A stretch of DNA of 24,421 nt. Origin: Syncephalis plumigaleata. Its lineage: Eukaryota > Zoopagomycota > Zoopagomycetes > Zoopagales > Piptocephalidaceae. Under the pieces are notes generated by a model that worked only from the letters and a program-made list of their open reading frames with translations, made no database searches and was not told where the DNA came from. Location: the NCBI GenBank assembly GCA_025201365.1, contig JAIXMF010000202.1:1-24421 (forward strand). Direction: 5' to 3'. Position numbers and translations under genes: made by a program. Positions 2,855-20,320 of this stretch are shown here, in pieces. Numbering within the stretch: position 1 is the first letter of the stretch; each line of letters starts with the position of its first letter.

Positions 2855-3191
2855 TCAATACGATATAACTAAGCAATTGAATGATCATTTCTCGATATCA
2901 CTCAAAGATCAAGTCAACATAAACCAAATTCATTCATGTACTCTATTTTAGGTTTATAGGCTTGTCTTTCTTTTCGATACACAACAGCGATGCGATGATG
3001 ATGATGATTTATGTTGCTTACACTTTCACATTTATTAATAACAATGTATACTTTCTAATTCATTAGTGTCTGAATGATTTGATAACTAATCAATGAACAT
3101 GTTAATATTCTATAATCTTGTATTTTATATGTCAATACGAGTAATGGAGTTTATTAAACCAATGTCTATTTATTAACGTCGTTTATATATA
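2855..3191. other. 3' intergenic region holding the severed RRP8 tail
   Basis: No gene of its own. On the minus strand 3191-3173 encodes the detached RRP8 ending: it completes the Cys codon and then reads IYKRR and TAA. Two AATAAA signals follow on the minus strand (3169-3174 and 3150-3155), presumably the original RRP8 poly(A) region. TA at 3190-3191 is the left copy of the transposon target duplication. The rest is A/T-rich with a short GAT repeat near 2990. Confidence 0.85.
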
Positions 3192-3463
3192 CAGGGTTTT
3201 TCCAACCAGTTGGCATTGTTGGCCTTTAACTTTTGCTCTCATTGAAAAATAATTTTGCATACTAGTTAGCATCTTTGTCTTTATCATTATGCGGGTATGG
3301 AATCCACCATTAGCAGATACTTTGTTCTTTGTTTAGCATTCGCCCTATGTTATTCACCACAATACAAATGCCCTTGTGTCCGCATCAAACAATGCTTTGC
3401 AGCGTACGTTTTGCATTGCTAGAACTCACCTTGCACTAATAATGTATCTGCCAAATAATAAAA
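3192..3463 (+). repeat. Left terminal inverted repeat, 272 bp
   Basis: Matches the reverse complement of 7441-7712 at 271 of 272 positions, compared line by line. The one difference is C at 3451 against A at 7453 (T on the minus strand). The inner end carries AATAAA on the plus strand. Confidence 0.97.
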
Positions 3464-3528
3464 CGTTTTTCTGTTAACAAAGGTTTGATGGTGTATCACA
3501 TTGGAAGCGTACGTAATTGGTAAAAGAA

Positions 3529-3534
3529 TTTATT
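3529..3534 (-). terminator. Poly(A) signal of the transposase gene
   Basis: AATAAA on the minus strand 8 bases after the transposase stop codon. Confidence 0.45.
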
Positions 3535-3541
3535 AACGTGA

Positions 3542-5042
3542 CTACAGATTAGATTCTTTTGCAAGACAACGGTCAAAGAATGTCTGAGCATGTTTAATCC
3601 AAGCAATGCAGTTATCTTTTGTAATAAGCTTGCTGGATTCTATTATTCGCTCCTCAATAGAATCATTCTCGCACAGTTCAGATCTTATTACGCCTGCCTT
3701 GAGCTTTGACCAGCATTCCTCTATAGGGTTCAGGAATGGCGAATAGGGCGGTAGGTAGGCGCAGTGGTGACCATGGGACTCTAATAGTTCTGCTACTGCT
3801 TTGGATTTGTGAATGGGCGCATTATCCATAATAAAGTATCGATTCTTCATATTGTTCTCGGCCAAAACTGTAATGGCCTGTTGTAAGAACATTAGGAAAT
3901 GTGTAGTCCTTGTTCCGATACGTCCGTGTATTTCCTCCGCTTTGGCGCCTTTCGTTTTGCGTTTCTTGACCGATTCTAACTTTGGCGTCTTCATGGAGAA
4001 ATTTAGAACGCCATCAGCACTAATGGCACCTAAAACTGAATATGTCACGCCACGTTGCGTGAGGACTGTCGCTTTGGCAGGCTCTCCTTTCTTCGAGCGA
4101 CCACGCGTTCGCCGTGCGTTTACGCTAAATCCAGCTTCGTCAATGAACACACAGTTTGATAAAAAGTCCATTTCTGTGTTGGCAATCCACCCGCCAACTA
4201 TTTCTGCCCGTAATTCAATGGTGCGCGGCTCATTTCGAGCAGCTGGAATTCGCTCTAATTTTTTCATTGTTAAGCTACAATGCTTCACCATGTGCTTTTG
4301 AAGGGCGGATGTCGTGATACTTAAGCCTTCAAACGCTGCCTCAATCTTCTTCTTCGCCTCGTTAAGCGTTAAAGTTGCATCATCTTCGTATATCTTAATT
4401 AAAAACTCAGTATGCTCTTCAAACAATTTCTGATTGCCGTTCTTCTTTTTTGTTGCAGTCTTTTCCTTTACTACAACGTTGCCATCGTCTGCCAATTCCT
4501 CGCGAGTAAACATTTCTTTTTGCTCTTCTCTCCATGTTTGGATATATTTTTGTCCCGTCCGCTCATGTATACCACATTGGCGAGCCGCCGCTGCAGCCGA
4601 AAATTTACCCGTGCTGTATAGGTCGATAAGGCGAGCTTTTTGCGCTTCTGTATATCTCCGGTATGTACCACGTGAGGCCTGCTTCGGCGCTTCCTATTCA
4701 ATAATAAATACATTGTATTCACTCATTGCATGTTAACATTACCTCTTTGTCATCATCCTTGTCTTTTTCCGCTTGATTGGTAATTGGCTCCTCTTCCCTT
4801 ATTTCAACAATATTAACCTCCTCGTCCACTTCACTGCTTGATTCGAGCATTCTTTCCGGCGGAGATGAGACTGGTGTCGAAGAATATTTATATATAGGTT
4901 TTACTTCGCCAGTATCTGCTATAAAGATTGCTCTATTGAGCATAGATATCTCCATTTCGTCGGAATCAGTAAGGGAGCCTGCAGCAACAAATAGCGTTGA
5001 TGCATATTCAAGGGCATCTTCAGCACGAGTATTGTTAGTCAT
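3542..5042 (-). CDS. Tc1/IS630-type DDE transposase (DD34E), two exons
   Basis: Exons 5042-4743 and 4693-3542 are joined by a 49-base intron (donor GTAATG, acceptor GAATAG, phase 0), giving 483 aa. The splice restores a helix-turn-helix at about residues 108-156 (RGTYRRY ... CGIHERTGQKYIQTW) in frame with the catalytic domain; reading exon 2 alone from its internal Met would lose it. Catalytic residues: D285 in FIDEAGF, D390 in FIMDNAPIH, and E425 in PYSPFLNPIEECW. The last two are 34 residues apart, the DD34E spacing. The N-terminal 100 residues are acidic and Ser-rich. Residues about 338-360 are a Lys-rich insertion between the first two catalytic residues. The start was chosen as the ATG just before TNNTRAED; an in-frame ATG at 5102 would add a hydrophobic stretch. 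The enzyme should cut at the inverted repeats and insert into TA. Confidence 0.93.
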
Positions 5043-5320
5043 GTTTAAAATAAAAACACTAGTGAATTGTAAAAGTTGAAAGCGCGGCAAGTAAAAGCAC
5101 ATCAAAGGCAAGTCAGTTGAATAACGGTATAATTGTACCTGATTATTTTAATATATATATATATATTCGCATTCTAAATGCTCTTGTGCTTGTATACTGA
5201 GAGGTCCTTGTGCCAAAGAGGTCCTTGTGTCGGTATTCTTACAGGTCATTGTTTCTGAAATGTCCTTGTTTGTAAGCTGTCATTGATTTAAAAATAGTAT
5301 TATATCATTATTCTAAAATA

Positions 5321-5820
5321 TCATTGTGCCAATGTGTCAATATGTCAATGTGTCAATACGCCAATATGTCAATATTTCATTGTTTTAATATGTCAATATG
5401 TGAATGTGCGAATGCGTCATTGTTTCAATAGATCAATAAGTCAACGTGCCAAAGCACCAATATTTCAATATGCAAATGTTCCAAAGTTCCAAATGTATAA
5501 GATTAACAGTGAGCCAATGTGCCAATGTGTGAATTGTCCAATGCGCCAACGCGCCAACGCGCGAATAACTCAATGCGTCAATACGTCAATGGGTGAATTG
5601 TCCAATGCGTCAATGCGCCAACACGCAAATATGTCAATGCGTGAATGTGTCAATATGTGAATTGGTCAATGTGCGAATGTGCCAATGCGTGAATTTTTTA
5701 ATACGGTAATACGGCAATACGCGAATACACCAATACGGCAATATGTGAATAAGTCAATACGGCAATACGTGAATATAATAATACGTGAGTACGTCAATAC
5801 GTGGATACGCCAATGTGTAA
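5321..5820. repeat. Degenerate 8-bp tandem array, consensus CAATRYGY
   Basis: About 60 imperfect copies of an 8-base unit (CAATATGT, CAATGTGT, CAATACGC, GAATGCGT and similar). Because 8 is not a multiple of 3, translations in all frames show a meaningless 24-base repeat of peptides; no protein is claimed. It lies in the spacer upstream of the transposase gene. An (AT)8 run at 5151-5166 and looser GGTCCTTGTG/GTCATTG-type copies at about 5200-5300 lead into it. Confidence 0.9.
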
Positions 5821-6204
5821 TGTTATTAGTGCACGTTACCTCCTATCATCATATATATCGCAAATAACAATTGTCTATTTCCTTAGGCCACCGGTGCTCT
5901 ACCTACTTCCTCGGCCAGGGATTCGCGTGACAGTGAACATGCCGCTGCTCATGCGTCATAATAATCCCTTGTGTCAGTGTGTATAATAGCTACAATCTGA
6001 ATAGTGCGATGATTCTTTGTTCTTTATTTCAATAAAAATATAGGGACATGTATATATATATATTCGCTCCTGTGGTGCGAACAATCACGCTCACGCCATA
6101 GCTATTGTTCCACGTATAGACTGTTGATTCTGTTGACCTGTGTATGTTACCATCAGTTTCGTAAATTATTAAGGCGGATTAAACCAATGGCAATTGAACC
6201 TTGA
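5821..6204. other. Spacer between the two repeat arrays in the transposon
   Basis: Unique sequence with no credible frame. It includes an (AT)n run at 6051-6063 and a more G+C-rich patch at about 5880-5960. No gene or RNA was recognised. Confidence 0.6.
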
Positions 6205-6775
6205 TATATTGACAAATCGTCACAATGTGTCAATAGCGCACAATGTCAATGTTCATTGTCTTACTAACAATGACGCACTGTGTCAATGTTATAAGCTATC
6301 AACACTCCATTATGTCCGTATGACAATAGCATGCAGTGTCTATGTTCATTGTCTCAGTATGACCATAGTACACAATGCCAACGTTCATTGTCAGCATTCG
6401 CTGTCTTGATATGACAATAGTACACAATGCCAATGTTCTAAGCTATCAGCATTCCATTGTGCCAGTATGACAATATTATTATGTGCTATTGTTATTAAGA
6501 CGACGAATGTTGACATAGAATATTGGCATTGTACGTTGAACACTTTTCGCACACAACAATAACACACAATGCCGACATTTTATGCTAGCATTCATTGTCT
6601 CAATAATGATAACGGACAATGTCGATATCTTAAGCTATCAAAATTCCATTATGCCCGTGTGATAATAGCACACAATTTCAATGTTCGCTGTCAATATCCG
6701 TTGTCTTAGTATGACAGTAGCGCACAACGTCAACAGTCTAAGCTATCAGCATTCGTTGGCTCAGTATGGTAATAT
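6205..6775. repeat. Degenerate repeats of about 60-75 bp, CACAATG/CATTGTC-rich
   Basis: Recurring blocks: ATGACAATAGCACACAATG, then CAATGTTC, then TAAGCTATCAGCATTC, then CATTGTCTCAGT, repeated with substitutions and deletions about eight to ten times. The AAGCTATCA block recurs at about 6293, 6430, 6634 and 6740. CAATG and its complement CATTG both abound, so many sites can pair with each other. The array lies upstream of the 6891 gene, on the opposite side of the spacer from the 8-bp array. Confidence 0.8.
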
Positions 6776-6890
6776 ACAGAAGCATGTAAAACATTTAAAA
6801 ACACGTTAGAAGCGTTCATCTTCAAAAAAGTTCATTACAAACATTTCATTACTTTTTATTTTGTGTCAAATCAACACGCCAAATTATAAA

Positions 6891-7352
6891 ATGGACAATA
6901 GCACGACCTCATCCAGTACCGCTCGCCAATCTTATCAAGCTGTAGTGAGGAAAAGACGCGGACAATATAAACATTACGAGCCTGGTCAGATTAAATCATT
7001 TCTGTTTAATTATTTTTGTCTCAAGATGACTTTGGACGAGGCAAGTCGGAATTCAGGTGTTACTAAAAGTACAGGCCGTCGATACGTTAAAAAATGCCGA
7101 GACAACAAAAGTGAACTTACTAAGTTTGGTATATGTTTTCGTACTAATACGCAAGGTACGTATAAAGATGAGATCTATAATAATTCGCTGACACAACGTT
7201 ATAAGATCGTTTACAACGGCAGCCCGAAAATATTCAATATAGATTTACAAAATTTAAGTGACCGCATACATATTTCAATGTATCACGATGTAGCATTAAA
7301 TAAACGCTATTATAAATATTTCTTTGCGAATGTTAAAAACATCATACGTTGA
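6891..7352 (+). CDS. Transposon-encoded small helix-turn-helix protein, 153 aa
   Basis: Starts at the ATG at 6891; the frame is open further upstream but only to a TTG. About residues 22-70 (RGQYKHY ... SGVTKSTGRRYVKK) align without gaps over 49 residues with the transposase helix-turn-helix at its residues 108-156: 14 identities, including R-G-x-Y, Y, Q, Y, K, A-x-R, G-[IV], T-G and Y. No DDE residues follow. The remaining about 80 residues (KIFNIDLQNLSDRI and onward) match nothing I know. It lies just inside the right inverted repeat and is divergent from the transposase. It could be a transposition repressor, a second end-binding factor, or a decayed remnant of a duplicated transposase gene. 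An intact ATG-to-stop frame argues against decay. Confidence 0.65.
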   Translation: MDNSTTSSSTARQSYQAVVRKRRGQYKHYEPGQIKSFLFNYFCLKMTLDEASRNSGVTKSTGRRYVKKCRDNKSELTKFGICFRTNTQGTYKDEIYNNSLTQRYKIVYNGSPKIFNIDLQNLSDRIHISMYHDVALNKRYYKYFFANVKNIIR

Positions 7353-7440
7353 TTCAAGTAGCCAGAATACAGAATACACTAGACACATATGCATTAAACT
7401 AAGCTAGGTGTAGCACCATTATTATTATTATTAGCAGAAT

Positions 7441-7712
7441 TTTTATTATTTGACAGATACATTATTAGTGCAAGGTGAGTTCTAGCAATGCAAAACGTAC
7501 GCTGCAAAGCATTGTTTGATGCGGACACAAGGGCATTTGTATTGTGGTGAATAACATAGGGCGAATGCTAAACAAAGAACAAAGTATCTGCTAATGGTGG
7601 ATTCCATACCCGCATAATGATAAAGACAAAGATGCTAACTAGTATGCAAAATTATTTTTCAATGAGAGCAAAAGTTAAAGGCCAACAATGCCAACTGGTT
7701 GGAAAAACCCTG
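7441..7712 (-). repeat. Right terminal inverted repeat, 272 bp
   Basis: Inverted copy of 3192-3463 with one difference. Its outermost 38 bases on the minus strand now serve as the end of the RRP8 reading frame, with a TAA at 7677-7675. Confidence 0.97.
7442..7447 (-). terminator. Possible replacement poly(A) signal for RRP8 inside the inverted repeat
   Basis: AATAAA on the minus strand at the inner edge of the right inverted repeat, about 230 bases beyond the new RRP8 stop. Position and strand fit; use is inferred. Confidence 0.35.
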
Positions 7713-9054
7713 TACATGGTTTTAATATGAGTTCATTATCACGTAATGGTCTTGTTTCTTTTGCAGTCTTGTTCTTATTATTCTTGCTTGGTTTATTCGT
7801 ATCAGTTGCTTTTCCTTTCGTAAAATCAAAACATATAAACATTTTGTTTTTATCATCCTACATGTATAATTTAATGTTAATGCACATTGCTACTACACTA
7901 ATCGATTAAACTAGTGGCACTTACTTTATGTTGAAGTTCAAATCCCATAGAAGTCAATATCTTTACAAATCGATCAACACTGGTAAATCGACTTTTAACT
8001 TCGGCCACCTTCAATTCACCACTAGAATAACATGTGAACAAGGGTGTGTAAGTTAATATTGTTGCTGTAACATAAATAGCAATATCACCTACCCTGGACG
8101 TAGTATTCTATAAGCTTCACGTAGGAAATCGATAAAGTTGGTGCCCATGAGCGATAAACAGAATATTACCATATCAGCCGCGTTATCTGCCATGGGCACA
8201 TTAGCGATATCGCACGCGGTAATCCGCTCATTTCCTGCTACCAAATCAAACGAGTGCATACGATGGGCTTGTCCAACGCGTAATGCCAGCATGGCTTCAC
8301 CGCAACCCATATCAGCTACGGTTAATGGTTCGGTACGCGATTGTAATTCGGCAATATAACGATCAAGTGGATTCTCCGGCCATTCCTCCACTTGTGATCG
8401 AAATCCTTCGTGATACTATGATAGTCAACATATAGACACATTAACAGAGAAGCATGATTCATTACTACTATTATACTGGTTATTCTAACTTACTTGTTCA
8501 AACAGTTCCGGTTGCTCTGAGAATAACTTGAACGACGTATCACCCGATGTCGTATATAATTGCTCGTTAAGCCATCGAAACCGTGCACCATGCAATTTCT
8601 TCTTCATTTGTTGCTGTAATGGTGTTAATCCATCCTTGCTATTGCTACTATTATTTGTGCTATCCTTTGCTATGTTACGCGTTCGTTTTATTGATACTCG
8701 CGTGTCTACACTCGTTACATCCTAGGATCATTGATGAGTTATTCGTTTAACGTAGTGTATGTATACTACTAGTTTACCTTGTTCATTTTTCGTTTATTTT
8801 TAGTACTTTTATCCGTAGCTTGAACTACATTCGTATGAGTCGGTTTATTTGCACTGTTACCAGACTCGGTTGTTATAGCAACACCGGATTGACGTGCTGC
8901 ATCTCTAGCGGCACTTTTGGCCAATGCCTAATAATGACTACTGATTAGTATATATGCTATAGTATGTATTATAGTGGTAACATACCTCCTTCAACTGCTG
9001 TTTCTGTCGTGAAGCAAACAGTGAACGTCGCGGTTGTTGTTGTTGTTTAGGCAT
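7675..9054 (-). CDS. RRP8: Rrp8-type 25S rRNA (adenine-N1) methyltransferase with transposon-altered C-terminus
   Basis: Six exons on the minus strand: 9054-8986, 8927-8778, 8721-8494, 8415-8093, 8021-7925 and 7857-7675. Introns are 58, 56, 78, 71 and 67 bases, all GT-AG; the product is 349 aa. Family signatures in order: GARFRWLNEQLY, YHEGFRSQV, WPENPLDRYI, SAM-binding VADMGCGEA (about 182-190), HSFDLVA, ACDIANVPM, FCLSLMGTN (about 234-242), GELKVAEVKSRF, MGFEL. The N-terminus is basic and Gln-rich, as in nucleolar proteins. In yeast Rrp8 makes m1A645 in 25S rRNA and aids early 40S/60S processing. The frame reaches LKPC, crosses into the transposon right inverted repeat, adds 12 residues (TGFFQPVGIVGL) and stops. 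The family ending IYKRR lies detached at 3191-3173. The catalytic domain is intact, so the protein may still work. Confidence 0.93.
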
Positions 9055-13887: not shown

Positions 13888-16800
13888 CTACAATTGATTA
13901 AAATAAGAAAAATCGAGCAATGTTTGACGTGATGTACCAGTGGGTTTTGATCGCTTTCTACCTCTACGTGATTTAGTATTAGTAGAAGTGGAAGTGGAAG
14001 CAAAACTACTACTATTATTAGTGTATTATGTAATGGTAAGGAATAGACGATGGAAATGTTGACTTACCGTTTAGGACGTGAATTATTATTGCTAGTATTA
14101 TTGCTGGAATGATCTACATTATTCGTACTAGTGTTGTCTTCTGGTTGTAATGACGCTTCTGTTTGTCTACGTAAACAATGCTCTACATGACAATAGAGTG
14201 CAGCCTCTGAACGAGCCTCTAATCTCGTATTACACACGGGACAGGTTGACTTGATAAGACCGGAATCCCATACCATGGCTGATATGTTTGTCTACGCGTC
14301 ATTATCATGAATAATTATCATTGACTATGGATGATTTACGATGTAGTCACTTACTGTGGTATTAGTGTCGTTGTCATTGATGGAGGGTTTTCTAAAGAAC
14401 TGTAGTTGTATACACGATTATGTAAGTAATGATCTATGCTCTTTGTTCATTACGTATTTACCTTGGTAATCGATTTGTTGATCTGTTTCGTACGCATATC
14501 TTGCAATGCCGATATACGCAATCCCATTAGTCGTATATCAATGGGTTGCTCTTGTTCCAATAGCTAAAAGTCATACAGCTTATTAGTATATATGTGTATG
14601 TGGAATAACTATATAGATTACCTGTTTGCCCTGAGTGTACAAATCCTCCTCTGTAAATATACACTGGGCTAAACTACGTGATCGTGATAGTATAGTAAAG
14701 TCGGATCGTTTAAGCTTCAAAGTGATTGTCGATCCCTAAATGACATTGCACACAGTTAACGTAATGCTCGATTGTTATGATTATTAAGCCATGTCGATAA
14801 CTACTTACCTTGATTTGTTTACGATCTAGATTACTTGCAAGTTTGTCGGCTATCTTTTTTAACATTTCCAACTGTTGTTGCGCGTCAGACATGTTGCGGA
14901 AAGTGCTAACAATATTATTGTGGCAATTAGTACACAATAATAGGAATAAACTAGACTATTTGCATTGCTTACCGTTCTACACTAATACTTTTACGATCAT
15001 ATTGACTGTATAATAGCAATAATGATGATGCTTGTTACTAAATACTAATAAATGACTCGATTGGTACTTACACGGATAGATCGGTTTTACCTAGTCCTAA
15101 TGCAGCACGCGATATAAACTCGAATGATTTCGATGATAGTAGTAGTTTTAGCATAACACGATGCTCATGCTAGATTTGTTCAATTAATCCTATCATTATC
15201 TCTCTTACTACACGCATTTAGCTTACCATGTCATTGCCTGTTGTCACACCAAGTGCACCGAGTAATTGCTCTGTCACTCGACCAATGCCTAATTATCAAT
15301 TTATTATGGATGCTGCTATTTTAGCTATTATTATCAACTTACCATTCAGTTGGCGTACAGGTAACTCGCGTACAAACTTCATAATAACATCCCTGTCATT
15401 CTTTAGCGTATATTGACCTGTTTCAATATTCATCAAGTATTTGTCCATGATGACATTATGGTGTATCTCTTACCATTTGGCTTATTAATATCGGAGCATA
15501 TCTAAGTACAATGCATATATATATATAGTTGTTATTGCTGTACCATCACCATCCTATCGATGATAACACCTACTTTGGCTAGACGTCTAATACATAAATC
15601 TATATTAGCTGTGATTGTTTATATCTCTAGTATTCCTAGTGTTATTACTTACTTGTTGGCTGCAATACCTGCACTAGCTGCATTTGTGACTAGTTAGTTA
15701 TCATGTAGTATGACCATGATTCATATGAAAATACCTGTTAGATTTGTTTTCCTAATATACAGCGTTGTTAATCACACACATGCAAGTTTTCTAGTCTTGA
15801 TCAGTACAACAACTTACTCGAATATCTCTTGTCTAATCTTGTGTGTCGCCTCCTCTGCAGTCATGCCCGTTTCCTCCATGTAGCTCGTAAGGTTTAGATA
15901 GGCTAATTTAGAGTAATATTAGTATACATTAATGGCATTACAGTGATAATGCATTAAACCTACACTCATCAATGCCTGCCGCTCTAATTAGATAGTAGTT
16001 AGCATCCTGACTATGGCCGAACAAAACGAATACACTAATACTTGCAGAAATTGTGGATCATATCTCTATTCACTAGATTAGCAATGAATGAATAATCGAG
16101 CATATCATTTGATTACCTCGAGTATAGCTTGAACTTGCTTCGATATCGCCCTAATTATTAGCACTATTGAGCTATCTAATACCAATAGATCATCGTATCC
16201 CATAGCTTACTTGTATTTGGCTCCATTGACAGGTATGATAATCAACTCTATTGATTATACATTGGCTGTTATATTAGTTGAATAATCAACAATGGTTAAT
16301 ACGCTCAACGTACCAGGACACAGTTTCTACATATCATCCAAATGATAGTAATAATGATGATGATTAGTACAGACAGCAATTCTGACATTATTATTCTTCT
16401 ATACGATACCTTGGCAATATAGCCAGGCATTGCCGATCTAATACCAAATTTGCTATAATTATGTCATGTTAAACAATTTGTCATTGTGTATCACTACTGC
16501 AGGGATTACCGTGCAACATCTAGCAATCATAGTAACTATTAGTATTGCCTAACTGTAATGCTTTAATACAAACTTACAATTTGCGGTAGAAAGCATACTA
16601 TTCCCCTGTAATTCATTCGTTCATTCATTCATTTACGCGTAATATGCTTTTAAGTAAACAGTATCATACATATATATATATACATATCGCTACCTACTCC
16701 AACTGCCATGGGTTTTGTCTTTAACTCCGGGTTGTCAAGTTCCTCGACTGCCGCGTAGAATGCTAGTCATTTCCAATAAACACATCGTTAACAATGGTTG

Positions 16801-17415
16801 ATTTATTATTCATCATGAAGCAGCCTCCTCCATTACCATCCATATCTATATGTACTATTGTTTGTGATAAATCGCGTTCTACTTCAAGTTGTCGCCAATC
16901 CATATCAACTTGCTTGCGAATCTGCGTTAAATCACGCCCCTCCAATCGTTTCTTCCTCTCTAGCAGTTGCTCGATTCTCCTACGGAGTGCTTGGTCTTTT
17001 CGTCTCTCGTTCTCAAAAAATGGTGTTCCCTAATAGCGTGGTATGCAATCAATTATTAACCATTCGCCGACAAGTAGGAATGCAGTGACATTCTACCTAC
17101 CTTGGAAGCTTCGTATATAACACGCGTAATCATGGCTTTATCTGTGCTCTGTAGGCCCGCCTTGTTTGCCGAAGGTCCAAGAATTCGTGCCATAAACGTG
17201 GAATTATTGCTGTCATTCTTGCTTGATTCCTCGACAGCGGCATCCTCAGCAGCATCCTCGGTGGCTTCTCCAGTATCCTCCCATTCCAAAAAGTCAGCTA
17301 CTTCGTCCTCGCTGTAATCGTCATTCTCACTATCCCAGCCTTGTGTATCAACTGTGATGCTGCTCTTATCGCTGGCAGTAAGTGAAGGCACCGATTCTGC
17401 AGCTGGTAATGACAT
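13888..17415 (-). CDS. DNA polymerase kappa (DinB-type Y-family), 26 exons
   Basis: Exons on the minus strand (high to low): 17415-17101, 17029-16837, 16762-16698, 16605-16578, 16519-16510, 16452-16410, 16326-16314, 16247-16211, 16150-16117, 16065-16046, 15983-15964, 15902-15818, 15751-15735, 15677-15653, 15586-15574, 15501-15474, 15417-15343, 15288-15227, 15169-15072, 15005-14973, 14905-14809, 14735-14622, 14563-14462, 14399-14355, 14291-14068, 14011-13888. Total 1,920 bases, 639 aa. Motifs: NKAGLQSTDKAMI; IVHIDMDAFYAAVE (catalytic D167); MLSTANYVARKFGIRSAMPG; GIDES (D258, E259); TASAGIAANKRLAKICSD; NGIGRVTE; LGLGKTDLSV; and little-finger SISVERTF. A C2HC ubiquitin-binding finger has C541, C544, H559 and C563. 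The tail SRQTLLDFSYF resembles a PCNA-binding motif. It performs translesion synthesis past bulky N2-guanine lesions. The acidic N-terminus (about 15-70) is poorly conserved. Budding yeast lacks this polymerase. Confidence 0.92.
15984..16045 (-). other. Probable GC-AG intron in the polymerase kappa gene
   Basis: Donor GCAAGT (the GC-type consensus), a CTAAC branch site, and acceptor CTAATTAG; 62 bases. Using it joins YDPQF to L-A-A-G-I-D-E and gives the expected five residues between the Phe and the catalytic Asp. GT donors nearby either hit a stop or add four residues. Confidence 0.65.
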
Positions 17416-18209
17416 GGCGCGAAATATGAGTAGGGATAAAAAGAAGAAATTGTGACTCAACATGTCAAAATGAGCGCAATGGTAACGATGCTCGTTTGTC
17501 ATTACACAATAATTGACTGATTTATTCACCAAAACAAACAATAACAATAACAGTTACACTGCAAGTGTACACGCACTGTTCCATGTCACAATGGAAGAAT
17601 GCTAGCAATCAACATATGAATCTACACGTTCCTCTGGTATGTGTCTTGCTAGTTAATGATTGTTTTCCATGTTTATTCTCAAGCGATACAAAAGCATTAA
17701 TGATTGCGAATTAGAGAATAAATACTATGGAAGCAAGCGCGCTACTATCAAACAAGCTACTGCTCATTACGGCGTGTTCTGATCCATGTTTGTAGGTAGA
17801 CATGCTTTCGTCTTGCCAAACATGTAACATCCACAAAAATGATAGGCCAATGTTACGACTGTTAAGCTTTATTTGCAAGGATATAGGCCTACAAAACACT
17901 TTAGTTCTATCCTGTTTCGTCATTATTTTATTTGGAAAGGTAAAAAAGAAAGATCACTACGCCGTATTTGTAAGTGGCACGACTCGGACTCGTGTTTCAA
18001 ACCATCGTTTATGCGCATTTTCATGGTCCGAACATACGGGATTAGACCATCAAGCGAGCAGAAGAACACTGGATGATTGCTTAGCGTATTCCACTATAAA
18101 TATTAGATTATTTGTTGTAATCTTCTGCATACTTTATTTTTGCCTTATTCATCCACTTATTTACTTACGTTTGATACTATTCCGTTTATAAGTTACATTT
18201 TACGATATT
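17416..18209. other. Divergent upstream region of polymerase kappa and the secreted-protein gene
   Basis: About 800 bases holding both promoters. A 129-codon plus-strand frame at 17802-18191 starts with ATG, but its product is Cys/Leu/Ile/Phe-rich and matches no family, so it is not called as a gene. No RNA gene or operator was recognised. Confidence 0.55.
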
Positions 18210-19360
18210 ATGTTTACGCAATCGAAAGGTACTCTGGCCCTGATGGCCGCCTCTTTGCTGGTAGTAATGGCATCGATGGACGTGGTTTCCGGAGATGTAC
18301 ACATGTCCTCGCATGTTCGACGAGGTGATTCAGGGTACAAGCCATCGGTCACCGGTCCTATTGGTTATGATGAAGGTAAGTGTGAATAATATTGCTATTA
18401 TTAACGACTAATCATTTGAACCCAATGTAGCAACCAATACATTTTACGGACAGAAACTGCAGGAAGCAAATGCATTCGGTAAAGGAGGATTGATGCTTGA
18501 GCAGCCCGTAAAGAGCACAGATCCCAAGATACGTAAGATTAAAGGCTCGTACCACGGGGAGAAAGTGGAGCTTGGATGTATAGAGCCAATGCAATTTAAT
18601 GCTCCACCGTCAGACAGTTTAGTTCGACTACTTAAATTCTACCAACGCTGTCTGACGACCGAGAATACCGTTGCTAATCTGCTCAATAAGCGCATGGTTG
18701 GATGTCCGGTGTTCAAGATTGATGCGAATCAGGGCCACACTTGCTACACTATCTCCACGCCCACGTTCTTTGCTCCACCGGATAAAAAGATCATTCTCAC
18801 TCGATTTGTGGAGAACATGAGGGTCAATGCCAAATTCATAAACGATATTGCAGAGCGATTCGTTCACAGTAAGTGGTACAAAGCGTATTGTCGTTGCTGA
18901 TTAAACACTAAAAACTCATCGATTAGGTGTTGCTTTCCTGGCATCACTTGGCTTTTATTTTGATTTCTACAACGATAAGAGTAAGTTAACAGGGAAGTTA
19001 TTAGACGACTATACTAATCAGCTATCTCGCCTAGGTGTTCAAATTTCTAAAGTTAAATACAGCACAGTAGCTATGCCTTTGGTTACATTTACCGATCCAT
19101 CAAAATATCAGCCCATCTTAAATATCAAGGATGTTCAGTATCTCACGATAGCAAGGAGATTCTTGATCAGGTTCTATATGAGCAATAAGGATTACTTTGA
19201 TCCAAGTGTTAAAGAAGCCCTGATCGAGAGTATGGCTGAGCAAATGATTGCAAGCATTACACCACAATCATTGCAGGATAAACTTCAGCAGGGTGCCTCC
19301 TTGAACAATAGAGAACCAGGTAGTTCTCCACTAAAAACCATGAACTTCCCACCGCAATAA
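18210..19360 (+). CDS. Secreted protein of unknown family, 345 aa, three exons
   Basis: Exons 18210-18375, 18431-18868 and 18927-19360; introns of 55 and 58 bases, GT-AG, phases 1 and 1. The N-terminus has a short basic start (MFTQSKG), a hydrophobic core (about 8-25) and a small-residue region ending VVSG, a typical signal peptide. HVRR followed by GD (about 35-40) could be a Kex2-type processing site. The mature part is alpha/beta-like, with Cys residues in LGCIEP, QRCL, VGCP and HTCYT that could form two disulfides, then an aromatic-rich segment (SLGFYFDFYNDK) and a Gln/Ser/Pro-rich tail. I recognise no enzyme motif or family. The start codon is preceded in frame by a stop 7 codons upstream. 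It is divergent from the polymerase kappa gene. Confidence 0.8.
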
Positions 19361-20320
19361 ATTGCTTAATATCTTGTCTAATAAACCTATATCGTGGCTT
19401 TATTCCAGTCAATACGAATGTATTCGTCATATTGCCAATTAGCCTACAAGTTTACTATCGTTTTTTGGTGTATACCTTCAAATTTCAATGCTATAAGGTT
19501 AAACAAAAGGGGAAGTATGCAATGGCTGCATTTTAGCCAAGTGAGACATATCTTGTGTAATGATGATATATATGGCTAGTTCGAACCACAATATACGATG
19601 TATTTGCGGTATACTTCACGTATACATATTGCAGTGTTGCGGGTGTCGTGAAAGCATTGCACGGTACGCTGTGCAAGGGTTTTAACGGTATCCCCATTGT
19701 AATGCGCATATTGCATCGGTGGTAATGATCGCAACAAGGATTTCGACCGTTTTGGTCGGTTGCGCAACTACAATTGATCTGAACATTGATATGTTGAGTG
19801 TAATGCAACAGGAAAAAGCTTTTTATAGCAAATTATGCTATTTTGAGGTAGTATGAGATAAGCAAATGACGCACACGGCATAGGCCGTACATTCTATTAT
19901 TCTATAAAGAAACGTGGAACTACTATTGAGATGTAAATGAAATTACGATGAGAAATTTACAGATTTAATGTACTATTTCAAGGTAGCGGTTGAAACACCG
20001 ATCATACCGGGTTAATTAAGCAATATGAAAGATCTACAGCAATAAGATGAACTGACGATAAACGATGTGTACCTCTGTTGTATCTCTTGCACTTTCTATC
20101 GCATTCGTCACTTGTCGTTGTGTTATTTTATCCAGTACATTCCATTCTCTTAGTAAAGAAGGTCTACATTCGCTAGTCATTGTTATTTCATTTACACATT
20201 AGCGTGCGTGGTTGATTTTATTTATTGCGCTTATATATATGCATAGCTATCGTTGCCTTGCATCGTAATAGGTTATACAGTGTACACGATTGCCGTAACG
20301 AAAGAAAGAAACAAGTCAAC
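19361..20320. other. Intergenic region, no gene seen
   Basis: About 960 bases. A short CGACC/GGTCG hairpin lies near 19742-19760, followed by a GTTGCGCAAC palindrome. Frames on both strands are short and unlike proteins. It includes the promoter of the methyltransferase gene. Confidence 0.55.
19380..19385 (+). terminator. Poly(A) signal of the secreted-protein gene
   Basis: AATAAA 20 bases after the stop; another AATAAA overlaps the stop codon itself. Confidence 0.5.

Follow-up and report, generated by a model that had tools for sequence, protein, structure and literature searches.

Our analysis supports the conclusion that a transposon, by inserting at a TA dinucleotide, has swapped the conserved C-terminal ending of an RRP8 gene for residues encoded by the transposon's own terminal inverted repeat (TIR). 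The altered gene copy lies in the window, that is, the whole stretch of DNA that was analyzed, which is the complete contig C116 (24,421 bp) of a 32.6-Mb assembly comprising 383 contigs. Very probably, the source is a diploid, dikaryotic or heterokaryotic eukaryote in which a Tc1/mariner-like element jumped into the 3' end of one RRP8 allele; the other copy of the gene, on contig C35, is intact. In the scheme that we propose, an autonomous-looking and recently active element inserted, in one haplotype, into the TA where the Cys and Ile codons meet shortly before the RRP8 stop, and the window and C35 contigs would represent two alleles. The altered allele would presumably be transcribed to give a protein that keeps its whole methyltransferase core but lacks the last five conserved residues, and the intact allele would mask any loss of function.

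The RRP8 copy in the window (7675 to 9054, minus strand) is predicted, from its open frame and its GT-AG introns, to encode 349 amino acids. Its start codon is at 9054, and its six exons (9054-8986, 8927-8778, 8721-8494, 8415-8093, 8021-7925 and 7857-7675) are separated by five GT-AG introns of 56 to 78 nucleotides. Exon 6 reads ...NELILKPC up to the right inverted repeat of the element, with the Cys codon TGT at 7716-7714. Translation then continues through a new tail of 12 codons, TGFFQPVGIVGL (7678 to 7713, minus strand), to a TAA stop codon that is supplied by the element (7675 to 7677, minus strand). In the first codon of this tail, ACA, one base comes from the TA; the remaining codons are element sequence. 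On the far side of the element, the displaced ending of the gene (3173 to 3191, minus strand) begins with the base that completes the Cys codon, continues with IYKRR and a stop, and reads T ATA TAT AAA CGA CGT TAA; in the empty C35 copy, an identical sequence directly follows the rest of the gene. The window copy has lost IYKRR, its last five residues, and has gained 12 others.

The first-pass annotation, which was made from the sequence alone, had read these junctions correctly base for base (element at 3192-7712, LILKPC plus 12 residues, TAA at 7677-7675 and IYKRR-stop in the flank at 3191-3173). It had also predicted that removing the element and one TA would give PCIYKRR-stop. Joining the two flanks with a single TA yields this ending, as does the natural empty copy. 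That annotation proposed to look for the empty TA site in other isolates, and we found the site on C35 in the same assembly. Judging by gene content and intron size, we share its view that the organism is probably a fungus.

A search of the assembly with the Pfam Methyltransf_8 model detected two RRP8 loci only, one in the window and one at C35:277643-278337; the search gave six matches, exon by exon, every one of them within these two loci. On C35, the insertion site is uninterrupted, with a single TA and no element, and the predicted protein of 342 amino acids ends in CIYKRR (its C-terminus is ELILKPCIYKRR-stop). The window is colinear with C35:274617-294395 from its first base to its last, in four blocks of 94.9 to 97.9% identity, and the largest break in this colinearity is the element. 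Outside the blocks lie the element, approximately 359 bases at 758-1116 of the window, and an insert of 238 bp on the C35 side. Of the 337 codons before the insertion site, 22 differ between the two RRP8 copies, 13 silently and nine not (dN 0.011, dS 0.062), and stops and frameshifts are absent. Decay of the window copy beyond the insertion was therefore ruled out, given this absence and a dN/dS of roughly 0.18 between the copies.

The 238-bp insert (C35:278927-279164) is a TA-flanked inverted-repeat element, located 132 bp upstream of the intact RRP8 start codon. It is absent upstream of RRP8 in the window, so that each RRP8 copy bears a different insertion. Stretches resembling this small repeat are found at approximately 685-1303 of the window, and the roughly 359 bases between them (758-1116) are missing in C35.

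Pfam family PF05148 (Methyltransf_8) matches the window protein with 286.9 bits (cut-off 27), aligning residues 108-311 with profile positions 2-205 of 219, and the frame of the methyltransferase domain stays open. The corresponding score of the C35 protein is 294.5 bits (same cut-off), and its match reaches profile position 219 of 219. RRP8 methyltransferases characteristically end in PC-x-YKRR. This ending is missing from the window protein, whose match to the profile stops at position 205 whereas that of the C35 protein runs to the end, and its absence marks the window gene as an altered copy, not another gene. The human Rrp8 crystal chain 2zfu_A, which the C35 protein matches over its residues 113-303, ends in LQPCLYKRR. 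Because C35 holds a natural empty copy with exactly the PCIYKRR sequence, and because the human chain ends in this way, a chance joining of the ending is excluded. Conservation of the RRP8 ending is thus supported at the sequence level by the Pfam profile, the C35 copy and one human sequence; the initial description of the tail as conserved from fungi to animals is backed here to the extent of these three lines. Used as a phmmer query, the C-terminal 53 residues of the C35 protein gave no matches, and a scan of viral contigs for Rrp8 relatives gave seven pattern matches, none of which was confirmed.

The element itself (3192 to 7712) is 4521 bp long, starts with CAGGG, ends with CCCTG and is flanked by a TA target-site duplication at 3190-3191 and 7713-7714. 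Its terminal inverted repeats, each of approximately 272 bp (left, 3192 to 3463; right, 7441 to 7712), differ by one mismatch within 272 bp. A transposase gene (3542 to 5042, minus strand) was predicted from splice sites, reading frame and domain searches; its two exons, 5042-4743 and 4693-3542, are separated by an intron of 49 nucleotides and encode 483 amino acids. The transposase matches the Pfam families DDE_3 and HTH_23 above their curated cut-offs and HTH_Tnp_1 barely so (24.3 versus 24.1), and its match to HTH_28 falls below the cut-off. Its second catalytic D and its E are 34 residues apart (DD34E). Among PDB structures, its best match is Sleeping Beauty, and this match is weak (E 0.00018). 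A second open frame (6891 to 7352, plus strand) could encode 153 amino acids, for which we found no Pfam match above a curated cut-off; the best was DUF1961 (E 0.00024, 20.9 bits versus a cut-off of 25). Between the two genes, the interior of the element contains long degenerate repeat runs at 5273-5830, with an 8-bp period, and at 6216-6770. These sequence features place the element among the DD34E Tc1/mariner-like transposons, although it is unusually long. At a length of 4521 bp and with two open frames, it departs from the description of such elements as short and carrying a single transposase gene; short length is a usual feature of Tc1/mariner elements, not a strict one.

When the left end of the element is read in the frame of RRP8 (window 3173-3260, minus strand), it continues as NWLEKPCIYKRR-stop, and the KPC that the insertion displaced is rebuilt, because the target flank equals the element end at eight of 10 bases. 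We take this to be chance. TA flanks that match the element end at eight or more of 10 bases number seven among 6596 in 40 kb of C35. We also considered a target preference for sites like the element's own end and rejected it: the match of eight in 10 is found at one RRP8 flank, yet at the nine remaining flanks of the five copies agreement ranges from zero to just six of 10 bases.

The same in-frame left end bears on the idea that splicing removes most of the element and lets the window copy retain its normal ending, since a splice into this end would yield KPCIYKRR. Within 3161-3500, however, there is no YAG acceptor between the in-frame stop of the left repeat and the tail, although rarer acceptors are possible. 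The nearest YAG trinucleotides end at 3262, before the left-repeat stop, and at 3166, after the tail's own stop. Moreover, an intron of approximately 4.4 kb would be needed, compared with the 56 to 78 nucleotides of the RRP8 introns. On the basis of the acceptor scan and intron size, we rejected splice rescue as a likely outcome and regard it as very unlikely.

Five full-length copies of the element were compared, namely the copy in the window and those on contigs C344, C90, C39 and C362. The latter four differ from the window copy at 0, 0, 1 and 2 positions (0 to 2 differences per 4521 bases), and TA is present on both sides of all five. In searches with both flanks, each of the four other insertions was found to have a counterpart contig that is free of the element and aligns straight across the site at 97 to 98% identity. 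As for the window, three of these four empty counterparts consist of exactly flank, one TA and flank. In the fourth, which lies on C223 and corresponds to the C39 insertion, the junction is altered: two TAs are separated by an additional C, and there are other small differences. More distant relatives, with repeats that are 73 to 99% alike, are scattered across the genome, among them four shorter copies of 2562 to 2617 bp. The survey of relatives scored 40 of 180 candidates and listed at least 42 matches, and more full-length copies may exist.

Because the five full-length copies are nearly identical and each has an element-free counterpart, we regard the burst of transposition as recent. Divergence between the presumed haplotypes is far greater than that among element copies: the aligned blocks of the window and C35 differ by approximately 2 to 5%, and the dS of RRP8 is 0.062, versus 0 to 2 differences per 4521 bases. 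This disparity suggests that the haplotypes had separated long before the RRP8 insertion took place.

Two of these other sites deserve separate mention. At the C39 insertion (G000:C39:1500-6750), the C223 counterpart (16100-19600) reads TA-C-TA, which resembles an excision footprint, and small differences adjoin it. The copy on C90 (G000:C90:380100-385350) splits an exon in the coding region of a GPI2-like gene (PF06432); in its counterpart on C78 (G000:C78:900-4600) the site is empty and the exon is open.

The paired state of the RRP8 region appears to be common in this assembly. We drew 20 arbitrary 400-base pieces of the genome and searched with 10 of them, using the central 200 bases in nine cases and 180 bases in the tenth. 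Five of the 10 have a second place at 98 to 100% identity, and five do not. Among the doubled pieces, two have a 100% identical copy on a different contig, perhaps through overlap in the assembly, and one has its second copy on its own contig (C112), which fits no simple haplotig pattern. The simplest reading of these sequence comparisons is that a second haplotype is partly retained as short contigs in the assembly.

Alternatively, the two RRP8 regions could be recent segmental duplicates, that is, paralogues within one haploid genome, one of which was hit by the insertion. The assembly alone cannot tell alleles from duplicates, and the arbitrary piece that is doubled on C112 shows a pattern that duplication would explain. 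Against this idea, colinearity between the window contig and C35 extends end to end apart from insertions, as in a haplotig, and doubling is widespread, involving five of the 10 arbitrary pieces searched as well as the element-free counterparts of the other four full-length insertions. We therefore judge segmental duplication to be improbable. A sample that is a mixture of two related haploid strains would yield an identical assembly pattern, and in that event the tail would truly be replaced in the only RRP8 copy of one strain. Direct evidence for a mixture is lacking, however, and haplotypes that are a few percent apart would equally be expected of a dikaryon or a diploid, so that we see a mixture as unlikely. 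An assembly artefact, in which a copy of the repeat was placed in the window contig by mistake, is scarcely credible: the element is indeed repeated and nearly identical elsewhere in the genome, but both flanks are colinear with C35 around the same TA, and the TA duplication is clean, a pattern not to be expected from a misjoin.

If, as we favor, the two copies are alleles, the consequences of the insertion for the organism are probably slight. The initial proposal, that the tail of RRP8 has been replaced with the catalytic domain spared, holds for the window copy; it does not extend to the organism, since the RRP8 copy on C35 is intact, and we reject an organism-wide loss of the Rrp8 tail for this reason. 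In the window copy, the stop codon sits in the last exon, and nonsense-mediated decay by way of a downstream junction would therefore not be expected. Candidate polyadenylation signals in the form of AATAAA hexamers overlap and follow the stop codon in the C35 copy, and the element separates these from RRP8 in the window. Another candidate signal, AATAAT at 7656, lies within the right inverted repeat past the stop codon of the window copy.

RRP8 is reported to introduce an m1A methylation in helix 25.1 of large-subunit rRNA in yeast and human, and living yeast cells that lose Rrp8 become cold-sensitive and show mild defects in processing and translation (PMC6085284). With an intact copy present, little or no phenotype would be expected here, and any functional damage to Rrp8 is probably masked by the other copy. 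It is conceivable, though rather unlikely, that the element-capped allele is made as a stable enzyme, in which case the haplotypes, possibly residing in two nuclei, would yield Rrp8 proteins with different endings. If true, this two-ended Rrp8 would constitute a natural allelic test of the role of the conserved YKRR tail in rRNA m1A methylation.

The RRP8 insertion is a clear, well-documented new example of an ordinary and already known type of event, and it leaves knowledge of Rrp8 and of transposons unchanged. Its value is that a recent insertion carries its own control, in the form of the empty site in the same assembly, and that it provides two natural versions of RRP8 that differ mainly in the conserved tail. 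It also indicates that this transposon family moved recently here, with at least two of the five full-length copies examined sitting in coding exons (RRP8 and the GPI2-like gene). Such insertions are probably tolerated because the other haplotype is intact. Our literature searches found no report of an RRP8 gene with a transposon insertion in fungi, nor of Tc1/mariner elements in Mucoromycota.

Compared with known systems, the element resembles DD34E members of the Tc1/mariner (IS630-Tc1-mariner) group in its TA duplication, inverted repeats, transposase with HTH and DDE_3 domains, and 34-residue spacing. It differs in its size of 4.5 kb, its repeats of approximately 272 bp, its second open frame and its long internal repeats; Tc1/mariner elements are typically 1.3 to 2.4 kb long. 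The window gene shares PF05148 with RRP8/nucleomethylin, the 25S/28S rRNA m1A methyltransferase, and differs in that 12 residues replace the last five, whereas the C35 protein has the same kind of ending as human nucleomethylin (2zfu_A). Differences between haplotypes have been tied to transposable elements in a dikaryotic fungus (PMC12129025). A similar alteration of a protein end is described for Mariam, an insertion in exon 6 of a wheat 5-formyltetrahydrofolate cyclo-ligase gene that occurs in two accessions only (PMC6824096). As in RRP8, a transposon-like insert in a coding exon supplies a premature stop and changes the C-terminus; unlike the RRP8 element, Mariam is 307 bp long, is described there without terminal inverted repeats and is flanked by a 9-bp duplication, and expression was measured in that study (PMC6824096).
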